This document shows positions 3,366 to 12,917 of a DNA stretch of 20,885 nt, in pieces. Position numbers and translations under genes: made by a program. The DNA is from a virus. Numbering within the stretch: position 1 is the first letter of the stretch; the number at the start of each line of letters is the position of its first letter. Below the pieces are notes generated by a model that saw only the letters and a list, made by a program, of their open reading frames with translations, was not told the DNA's origin and ran no database searches. The DNA lies in the IMG/VR virus record IMGVR_UViG_3300044742_000432, positions 1-20,885 of that record. The stretch is one strand, 5' to 3'.

Positions 3366-3826
3366 GAACTTACGGTAAGACAAAGAACTGTGGGGGTTGC
3401 CGCTTTTGGAGCGAAATGGTGGCCTATGCCGATGGCGGCGGGCCCGTTAAAGCAATGTGTCTGGCGGTTGGCGGTCCAGCGCACGGCAAATATGTTAGTG
3501 CGGGACAGCAATGCGAAAGCTGGAAGAGCGGGCACTTCGGAGCCGTTGACGATCCTCCAAATTACGGCGAGGAGACGCGAGCCCTGTATGCGGAAGAGGA
3601 GGCGAAGGCGGGCCTGAACCTCAAAGGCTTTCGAGGCAAGTGGAAACAAGCTATGCAGCTTGCTCGGGAGAATGAACGGACGGACGACAATCATCTCTTG
3701 CCTTATTGGGAGCGCGTGCGTTTGTTGTTTTTGGAGTTAGGTGGTCAATACATCGACCAGGATGTCCGTGATCGGGAACAAGTACGTGCCAAGCTCTACA
3801 AAGAAACCCAAGATCCCCAAGGCTAA
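3362..3826 (+). CDS. cysteine-motif phage protein (putative zinc binding)
   Basis: This 154-aa protein starts with an ATGA overlap at 3362. Its first 50 residues hold a CGGC pair (residues 10-13) and two later cysteines (MCLAVGGP and QQCESWKSG), a spacing compatible with one zinc site. Such N-terminal CxxC-rich modules are frequent in small phage proteins. The rest is helical and charged. Its final codons, GAT CCC CAA GGC TAA, lie inside a 34-nt repeat shared with the next gene junction. Function unknown. Confidence 0.6.
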   Translation: MRTYGKTKNCGGCRFWSEMVAYADGGGPVKAMCLAVGGPAHGKYVSAGQQCESWKSGHFGAVDDPPNYGEETRALYAEEEAKAGLNLKGFRGKWKQAMQLARENERTDDNHLLPYWERVRLLFLELGGQYIDQDVRDREQVRAKLYKETQDPQG

Positions 3827-4031
3827 GTCGGAGCCCGAGGAGCTTTGGATTCCCGTGGATCAGAACGTGGAAGCCAAGAACCTGTTAGCTGTAAATGGGT
3901 GCGTGGTATTGCGGTCCACGCTGCCGTCCGGAGAGGAACGCGGGCGCATCGTTCTCGGCCCCGGATCGACCGGGAAACTGGCCGTGCTTTTGCGGAGGTG
4001 GCTGCATGGCAAGCAAGCTCCCAAAGGCTAA
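3762..4031 (+). CDS. small hypothetical protein sharing its start motif with the next gene
   Basis: The frame continues in +3 past the end of the previous gene and stops at TAA 4029-4031. Start choice is uncertain: GTG 3741, ATG 3762 or GTG 3786 are in frame and none has a strong Shine-Dalgarno; ATG 3762 is used here. The N-terminus contains PKAKSEPEE, which reappears as the first residues of the next gene. The C-terminus (GKQAPKG) parallels the end of the previous gene. The body is a short beta-rich domain without recognised motifs. Confidence 0.5.
   Translation: MSVIGNKYVPSSTKKPKIPKAKSEPEELWIPVDQNVEAKNLLAVNGCVVLRSTLPSGEERGRIVLGPGSTGKLAVLLRRWLHGKQAPKG
3810..3843 (+). repeat. gene-junction direct repeat, copy 1
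   Basis: This 34-nt segment matches 4015-4048 at 31 of 34 positions. In both copies one frame ends an upstream gene (CCC MAA GGC TAA) while a second frame encodes PKAKSEPEE near the start of the downstream gene. Confidence 0.85.
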
Positions 4032-11862: not shown

Positions 11863-11875
11863 TATCGAATGTCCA

Positions 11876-11901
11876 CTTGGCTTCCTCGGAGGAAAGCCAA
11901 G
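11876..11901 (+). other. hairpin between the mini-protein and MBL genes
   Basis: CTTGGCTTCC (11876-11885) pairs with GGAAAGCCAAG (11891-11901) with a single bulged A and a 5-nt loop. No T-run follows, so it is not an intrinsic terminator. It directly precedes a second hairpin and may be part of the same folded leader. Confidence 0.6.
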
Positions 11902-11914
11902 CGGATTGCCCCCG

Positions 11915-11949
11915 GGTGTGCGCGGAACGGTTCCAGTCTCGCGCACACC
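11915..11949 (+). other. 10-bp leader hairpin upstream of the MBL gene
   Basis: GGTGTGCGCG (11915-11924) and CGCGCACACC (11940-11949) form a perfect stem. The loop contains a second dyad (GGAAC and GTTCC at 11924-11934). The ribosome binding site GAGGTGAAAGG follows at 11957. Confidence 0.65.
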
Positions 11950-11972
11950 TCCCGTAGAGGTGAAAGGTGACA

Positions 11973-12917
11973 ATGGAAATGCTGGCCGTTCTGCAATCGG
12001 GGAACTCCCCCGGCGAGGGACTGCAGTCCCAGAGAGACTCGTCAGAACAAGACGAAAACAGCACTCTGCCTTCGGCAGGTAGTCCTGGTTCGAATCCAGG
12101 CGGCCAGCTTAAAATCGCGATCCTGGCCACCTCCAGCGCCGGGAATTCGTCGTTCGTCAGCGATGGAGTCAGCCGCCTGTTGATCGACTGTGGACTGTCG
12201 CTCCTCGAAACGACTACGCGCCTGGCGGCGATCGGCGAGTCCGTAGACAACATCGACGCTGTGCTGCTCTCGCACCCGCACGGCGACCACTGTGCGGGCC
12301 TTCCGACGCTCATCAAGCGCTGGCGCCGCGGCGGGCGCTGCGTGCCCGTCTACTGCTCGGTGGCGACCTTTGACGCCCTGCCCAACGTGATCCCGCCGCA
12401 CTGGTACCGGCACGTCGCCCAGTTCGACCACTGGCAGATCGGCGAGATCCGCTGCGAGACGTTCGTCGTGCAGCACGATTGCGGCGAGCCGCTCGGCTTC
12501 ACCGTGCAAGTGGGCGATCAGCGCGCCACGTTCGCCTTAGACCTCGGGGCTATCGATGACCCGCTCGCCGAATACTTCACCCAGTCCGACTTCCTGCTCC
12601 TCGAATCCAACCATGACCCGGACATGCTCGCCGCCGGCCCGTACTCCTACCGGCTCAAGCAGCGCATTGCCAAGACGCACCTGTCCAACGAATCCGCCTG
12701 CGCGTGGATCTCGGAGTACATGGGTTACCGCACCCGGTACCTGCTCCTGGGGCATCTGTCGGAGACGACCAACGATCCGGCCATCGTGCGCCTGATGGCG
12801 CAACATCACCTCACCCGGCTCAAGCTCACGCCGGTGTTCCAGGTTATTTCGCCGGGAGCTTCGTCGGGGCCGTGGTTGTTGGCGCCGCTTGCGCGGCCGG
12901 GTCCGGGCAAGGAATAG
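11973..12917 (+). CDS. MBL-fold nuclease, YycJ/WalJ-like
   Basis: From about residue 47 the protein is a metallo-beta-lactamase-fold hydrolase close to YycJ/WalJ (VicX): KIAILATSSAGNSSFV, LLIDCGLS, HPHGDH (101-106), QHD (168), ALDLG (190) and the family-typical ESNHD...GPYSYRLKQRI...HLSNE (211-240). These supply the two-metal site; relatives are 5' exonucleases. Upstream of residue 47 the frame runs through a tRNA-like structure and encodes a low-complexity Ser/Gly/Pro tail. The start is ATG 11973 behind GAGGTGAAAGG; no canonical start exists nearer the domain. The end overlaps the convergent gene by 74 bases. Confidence 0.8.
   Translation: MEMLAVLQSGNSPGEGLQSQRDSSEQDENSTLPSAGSPGSNPGGQLKIAILATSSAGNSSFVSDGVSRLLIDCGLSLLETTTRLAAIGESVDNIDAVLLSHPHGDHCAGLPTLIKRWRRGGRCVPVYCSVATFDALPNVIPPHWYRHVAQFDHWQIGEIRCETFVVQHDCGEPLGFTVQVGDQRATFALDLGAIDDPLAEYFTQSDFLLLESNHDPDMLAAGPYSYRLKQRIAKTHLSNESACAWISEYMGYRTRYLLLGHLSETTNDPAIVRLMAQHHLTRLKLTPVFQVISPGASSGPWLLAPLARPGPGKE
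11981..12108 (+). ncRNA. tRNA-like structured RNA element (128 nt)
   Basis: GCTGGCCG (11981-11988) pairs with CGGCCAGC (12101-12108), an 8-bp acceptor-like stem. Directly before the 3' strand lies a canonical T-arm: CCTGG-TTCGAAT-CCAGG (12084-12100). Between are CTGCC-TTC-GGCAG (12066-12078, like a long variable arm), TCGTC-AGAACAA-GACGA (12039-12055, anticodon-arm size but G at position 33), GGGAC-TGCA-GTCCC (12017-12030), and CGGGG-AACTC-CCCCG (11998-12012). No normal D-arm or encoded CCA is present. It could be a degenerate tRNA, a Y-RNA-like (YrlA) tRNA mimic, or a structured coding leader. Confidence 0.6.

Follow-up and report, generated by a model that had tools for sequence, protein, structure and literature searches.

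We have found a tRNA-like RNA element of 128 nt at the start of an MBL-fold gene in the virus record IMGVR_UViG_3300044742_000432 of IMG/VR, all 20,885 bases of which were analysed and are called the window below. By its covariation the element is an RNA kept by selection on its fold, and three further phage loci have it at the same gene. The reading which we favour, with a probability of about one half, is that it represents a new tRNA-mimic RNA of phages, inserted in frame between the ATG and the second codon of the gene and selected for its fold; the transcripts would then have two mutually exclusive fates, either translation or processing in the manner of a tRNA. tRNA mimics are known from the 3' ends of plant viruses, from tmRNA and from a few mammalian transcripts.

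The element and its fold

A first-pass annotation had placed a tRNA-like RNA at positions 11981-12108, overlapping the start of the MBL-fold gene, and both its stems and its coordinates check out. All are found where it had located them: the closing stem of 8 bp (GCTGGCCG/CGGCCAGC), the T-arm CCTGG-TTCGAAT-CCAGG, which directly adjoins the 3' strand of the acceptor, and four further hairpins. The window also has genes for a DnaB-type helicase and a tyrosine recombinase. The features of the region are the following:

11957-11975 (+): SD-like GAGGTG/AAAGGTG and start ATG (11973-11975), just 5' of the element
11973-12917 (+): MBL-fold gene, translated through the element (Pfam PF12706, PF00753)
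11981-11988 (+): acceptor-like stem, 5' strand GCTGGCCG, pairs with 12101-12108
11989 (+): equivalent of U8, a T in the four copies
11992-11994 (+): putative D-stem, 5' strand TGC, pairs with GCA at 12061-12063
11995-12000 (+): D-loop AAYCGG, equivalent to A14 R15 Y16 Y17 G18 G19; fits the tRNA consensus in the four copies
11998-12012 (+): hairpin H1, CGGGG/CCCCG; in L012 the outer 3 bp alone hold
12001-12059 (+): D-loop insertion of about 59 nt, with the rest of H1, H2 and H3 (alignment columns 21-79)
12017-12030 (+): hairpin H2, GGGAC TGCA GTCCC, with two compensatory pairs
12031-12065 (+): core AGAGAGACTCGTCAGAACRAGACGAAAACAGCACT, including hairpin H3 (12039-12055, 7-nt loop AGAACRA)
12061-12063 (+): putative D-stem, 3' strand GCA, preceded by A21 at 12060
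12066-12078 (+): hairpin in the position of the anticodon arm, CTGCC TTC GGCAG, 5-bp stem and UUY triloop
12079-12083 (+): variable loop of 5 nt with invariant U48; an A15-U48 Levitt pair is possible
12084-12100 (+): T-arm, loop TTCRANY; three pairs changed on both sides
12101-12108 (+): acceptor-like stem, 3' strand, followed by TTAAAA; CCA is not encoded

The window copy of the element (W) has a minimum free energy of -56.0 kcal/mol, while dinucleotide shuffles give -43.8 +/- 3.9 (z -3.2); none of 200 shuffles was as low. The homologous elements have z values from -3.7 to -3.9.

As judged from its sequence, the element is the body of a tRNA without anticodon, which carries a domain of three hairpins in the D-loop. 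All 17 tRNA positions tested fit in the four copies: U8, A14, R15, Y16, Y17, G18, G19, A21, Y48, the pair G53-C61 and the T-loop TTCRANY. When the window sequence is shuffled, the eight D-side positions together with at least three of four D-stem pairs at fixed offsets are found at a frequency of only about 1e-5 to 2e-5. The first-pass annotation had seen no D-arm; we find instead a 3-bp stem (11992-11994/12061-12063) and a D-loop (11995-12000), split by the insertion of about 59 nt. This stem is invariant and complementary in the four copies and shows no covariation: its fit to the tRNA layout is what argues for it. Hairpin H1 shares G18 and G19, so that it competes with the elbow. An anticodon loop with G at position 33 had also been described, but the hairpin whose loop has 7 nt does not occupy the place of the anticodon arm, and the one which does (12066-12078) has a loop of 3 nt. 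This triloop is TTC or TTT in the four copies, and a seven-nt anticodon loop with U33 is absent; with a UUY triloop in this position there is no anticodon and decoding is impossible.

Homologous elements and covariation

An alignment-based search and a search for the core of the element led to the three further carriers, L011, L012 and L013, all of them from uncultivated phages. Several records are equivalent: L011 corresponds to L049, L012 is the same as L052 and has an element identical to that of L050, and L013 is the same as L051. A corrected pattern scan of viral contigs gave the same four contigs and one unrelated match (L066). The copies have a size of 126-128 bases.

In the alignment of the four copies all 123 cells of the six helices of the tRNA-like structure are paired (100%), whereas slid registers give only 29-51%. 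Eight base pairs have changes on both sides, with 12 such cells, and none of 500 shuffles reached the covariation score of the alignment. A chance fold is thus ruled out. The changes are found in several helices. In the acceptor, pair 8 changes from G-C to U-A in L012, and L011 has lost one pair on both sides: its stem has 7 bp vs 8 bp in W, L012 and L013. H2 appears as GGGAC/GTCCC, GGGGC/GCCCC and GGAGC/GCTCC; the arm in the anticodon position has the compensatory variants CCACC/GGTGG and TCACC/GGTGG; the T-stem changes from CCTGG/CCAGG to GGGGG/CCCCC and GCGGG/CCTGC. In the T-loop the variation is limited to positions 57, 59 and 60, as it is in tRNAs. Over its 35 nt the core differs by 0-1 changes between copies with about 72-74% identity of their genes, a conservation which may partly reflect recent exchange, the element being known from four related phages. 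The first-pass annotation had proposed to look in homologous loci for compensatory changes, and to take broken stems together with a conserved N-terminal peptide as evidence against an RNA. The four copies demonstrate the reverse: the stems hold through their substitutions while the encoded peptide drifts.

Comparison with known RNAs

Neither ARAGORN nor Rfam at gathering level gave any match for the window element, and permissive Rfam scans (E up to 10) returned weak, unrelated matches only. In BLAST the 26 nt at the 3' end are similar to phage tRNA-Asn genes, with no longer family match. We also searched for a tRNA of the host which might have donated this 3' end, but its pattern is absent from genome_contigs.

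The element differs from a canonical tRNA by its UUY triloop, the 59-nt insertion in the D-loop and the D-stem of only 3 bp; it shares with it U8, A14, R15, Y16, Y17, G18, G19, A21, Y48, the T-arm, the acceptor and a variable loop of 5 nt. We reject a functional tRNA in spite of the acceptor, the T-arm with TTCRANY and G18 G19: there is no anticodon, and ARAGORN and Rfam are negative. A tRNA-Sec of bacterial type or an allo-tRNA is rejected from the 5-nt variable loop, the lack of an anticodon and the acceptor, which has 8 bp in W, L012 and L013 but 7 bp in L011. A tRNA-Cys, suggested by GCA in the loop of H2, was dropped since this loop becomes TAAC in L012; a pseudoknot GTTCTG/CAGAAC was also dropped, as it is broken in L012. 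The relationship to YrlA and the bacterial Y RNAs which the first-pass annotation had suggested finds no Rfam match at gathering level. A search of the phage DNA examined for an antisense target of the core gave nothing notable: the 12-13-nt matches corresponded to the element itself, to the self-complementary stem of H2 and to a single 12-nt match in L058.

With tmRNA the element has in common a tRNA-like top half without anticodon and an overlap with a reading frame. However it has only about 128 nt, no pseudoknots were seen in it, and its extra domain is placed in the D-loop instead of replacing the anticodon arm. We reject tmRNA because the fused frame has no tag stop, pair 3 is U-A and not G3-U70, and ARAGORN and Rfam are negative.

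The closest architecture is that of mascRNA and menRNA (from MALAT1 and MEN-beta), which are also tRNA-shaped modules within a longer transcript and are recognized by RNase P and RNase Z through the tRNA elbow; they have a reduced D-arm and a compact loop in the anticodon position and keep the elbow guanines and the T-loop (PMC11693755). The element has every part of this architecture: acceptor, T-arm, elbow guanines, reduced D-arm and compact anticodon-position loop. It differs by its presence in phages and not in mammals, by its in-frame position in a coding sequence and by its D-loop insertion of about 59 nt, and there is no sequence match.

Insertion site and evolution

The element is inserted exactly between the ATG and codon 2 of the MBL-fold gene. 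Empty sites are found in L002, L003, L014 and L015, where the MBL gene begins directly with its ATG; L002 and L003 are close relatives without the element which were found with the MBL protein as query. L012 and L014 form a pair of filled and empty site and have in common the upstream gene (82% identity over 296 nt): L012 reads ATG-[126 nt]-CTT-AAA and L014 reads ATG-CTC-AAA, each one behind a terminator-like hairpin and an SD. No further copy is present elsewhere in the ten records searched: the 73-kb records of non-carriers hold none and the carriers hold one each.

The identity between W and L013 is 26% immediately upstream, 94.5% within the element and 77-82% downstream. Only seven of the 126 in-frame sites of the element differ (2 synonymous and 5 non-synonymous), vs 74% identity in the rest of the gene, with pS 0.43 and pN 0.20. 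The 5' two thirds of the element are near-identical in W, L013 and L011, despite proteins which differ by about 30%; the element of L012 is far more diverged, at a similar divergence of the gene. This pattern hints at an exchange of the element between phages. A single insertion with vertical descent is also possible: in the tree of MBL proteins L013, L011 and L012/L016 group together (97/95; L016 is a fragment with the same MBL protein as L012). The position of W is not fixed; in a tree without L016 and the outgroup it joins the other carriers weakly (77/72).

In L011 the element and the MBL gene are kept apart by an HNH homing-type endonuclease gene, found by eye from its translation at 3477-3905 on the opposite strand, just 3' of the element. 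The RNA fold is still intact in this copy. A precedent for an exchange of the element between phages is SegB of phage T4, a homing endonuclease of the tRNA region (PMC2988022).

The upstream region

A conserved leader is found 5' of the element or of the empty site in the window (11874-11960), L002 (3520-3615), L003 (3700-3795) and L011 (3240-3345). It has a hairpin with the loop CTCGGAGGA, whose stem sequence varies between phages. In W, L002 and L003 there is a second long hairpin with the apical sequence GTTCCAGTYT, and a CACCTC/GAGGTG hairpin may cover the SD. The window leader also gives a sub-threshold Rfam match to the Moco riboswitch (19.8 bits vs a cut-off of 36).

A terminator-like hairpin with a T-run, detected by eye, immediately precedes the SD which belongs to the MBL gene or to the element in L012 (3822-3880), L014 (3945-4000) and L011 (3285-3345): expression in these phages would apparently depend on read-through or antitermination. 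In L012, L013 and L011 the 8-10 nt adjoining the element on its 5' side are alike (ATAATAAATG, CAATAATAATG) though the genes further upstream differ; W has GACAATGGAAATG. In L002 and L003 a small ORF (about 67 aa, with IGxIxNIGG at its end) is located between the leader and the MBL gene, and L013 has it 5' of the element; the window lacks it. Phage gene products of L012 (about 3690-3775) and L014 (about 3800-3892) have a PEP-CTERM-like C-terminal signal VPEPxTYGLMG...RRR, which may be a hint of the host.

Reading frame and the MBL-fold protein

The open frame of the MBL gene runs straight through the element, from the ATG at 11973 to 12917, as the first-pass annotation had described. In W an in-frame ATG (11979-11981) ends with the first G of the acceptor 5' strand. 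The SD and ATG are found at the 5' edge of the element in the four copies. The element measures 126 nt in each of the three fusions (W, L012 and L013), where it is in frame and free of stops; L012 keeps the frame through offsetting indels relative to W. A start codon at the ancestral start of the MBL protein is absent in the carriers with fusion. In all likelihood, as judged from this arrangement, the element is also translated.

Residues 1-45 are encoded in or before the element, and the MBL domain begins near residue 46. The tail encoded by the element is predicted to be disordered: the AlphaFold pLDDT is about 28 over residues 1-39, and in the core it mostly exceeds 90. It had been described as a low-complexity tail which YycJ-like proteins do not need. 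Other members of the family indeed lack this tail: relatives without the element are common, so that the protein has no need of it.

The product had been called an MBL nuclease. The fold stands, but there are no firm grounds for calling it a nuclease. Its closest relatives of solved structure, all of them distant, are the cyclic-nucleotide phosphodiesterases Apyc1 and YhfI and folds of ELAC/RNase Z type; Apyc1/YhfI give the best profile match and are among the best fold matches. The protein has the MBL fold and HxHxDH motif of these class II phosphodiesterases, but it is about 16-19% identical over the fold. It appears to resemble Apyc1/YhfI at least as much as nucleases. Apyc1, whose activity is the cleavage of cCMP/cUMP, is an anti-Pycsar protein (PMC9117128); a phosphodiesterase with an anti-defence role would be as likely as a nuclease.

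Origin and possible function

In the reading which we favour, a ribosome which starts at the ATG would melt the element and translate it into the disordered tail at the N-terminus of the MBL protein. When folding comes first, the acceptor and T stems of the element would lock the region just 3' of the ATG. Initiation would require the acceptor strand to be single-stranded, so that, judging from the fold, the message and the tRNA-like state should exclude each other. An element with a tRNA elbow is a likely substrate for the RNase P and RNase Z of the host, and both enzymes process mascRNA and menRNA, whose D-arm is likewise reduced and whose arm in the anticodon position has a compact loop; this parallel suggests that the phage element is cut in the same manner. 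Such cuts would sever the ribosome-binding site from the gene and free a stable RNA with the shape of a tRNA. Most likely the element is cut in this way from part of the transcripts, and the near-invariant core would be the working part of the tRNA-scaffold RNA. The freed RNA would act through this core in the D-loop (12031-12065), and expression of the MBL gene would be limited at the same time. Some features count against a processed tRNA mimic: H1 can tie up G18-G19, the D-stem has just 3 pairs which never vary, and no CCA is encoded. The first-pass annotation had thought of a decoy, a processing substrate of the nuclease or an autoregulatory leader, each of which would be a conceivable mechanism.

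It is possible, but rather doubtful, that the element acts only in cis: a tRNA-like fold at the start codon would hold back translation initiation on the MBL gene, a tRNA-processing enzyme or the MBL protein itself might feed back on it, and there would be no task for a free RNA. The element does abut the ATG and SD in the four copies, and translation requires the melting of 12-13 stacked pairs of acceptor and T-stem. However a plain hairpin would suffice as a roadblock: a full elbow and a core with 0-1 changes in 35 nt exceed what is needed, and the L011 element is intact though the HNH gene cuts it off from the MBL gene. We also consider unlikely a selfish insertion, tolerated as it is open and in frame and spread by recombination or homing, although several features agree with it. 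The boundaries are sharp, with presence or absence at one site, the 5' two thirds are near-identical between carriers with quite different proteins, and in L011 the element is followed directly by a homing-type gene. Rickettsia palindromic elements and similar MITE-like sequences give a precedent of in-frame fusion (PMC2229807): they also have 100-150 bp, a terminal inverted repeat, a folded RNA and an in-frame location in a protein gene. The phage element differs from them by its tRNA shape with covariation, and by a single site with one copy per phage and no dispersed family seen. Furthermore no target duplication was seen by eye and the carriers are compatible with one clade; a tRNA fold with compensatory changes implies a function of the RNA.

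The exact removal of 126 nt would join the ATG to CTT-AAA and give the M-L-K start of L014 and L015, so that a tRNA-shaped intron, excised by tRNA-processing enzymes with rejoining of the ends, comes to mind; empty sites exist and an HNH gene adjoins the element in L011. We find it highly improbable: an intron has no need to be 126 nt long, stop-free and in frame, as the three fused copies are, nor to keep its frame through offsetting indels as in L012. A related scheme is very unlikely as well: the host enzymes of tRNA maturation and a ligase would splice the phage message, and the excised piece would persist as a tRNA-scaffold RNA with a functional domain in the D-loop. Hardly any weight can be given to a chance fold, a tRNA pseudogene or an attachment site left beside a phage integrase. 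A tyrosine recombinase gene is found 1.4 kb away and the 3' 26 nt recall phage tRNA-Asn genes; but the compensatory changes extend over four phages, both strands of the acceptor are present, and genome_contigs has no tRNA with this 3' end.

If our reading is correct, the element would be a natural tRNA scaffold which has kept the elbow, dropped the anticodon and gained a conserved domain in the D-loop, placed in frame behind a start codon. A single sequence would then be under selection both as a message and as a tRNA look-alike, within a gene for a protein that has anti-defence phosphodiesterases among its relatives by fold. It becomes testable whether phages employ the RNase P and RNase Z of their host as a switch for a gene or as a means of setting a decoy free.
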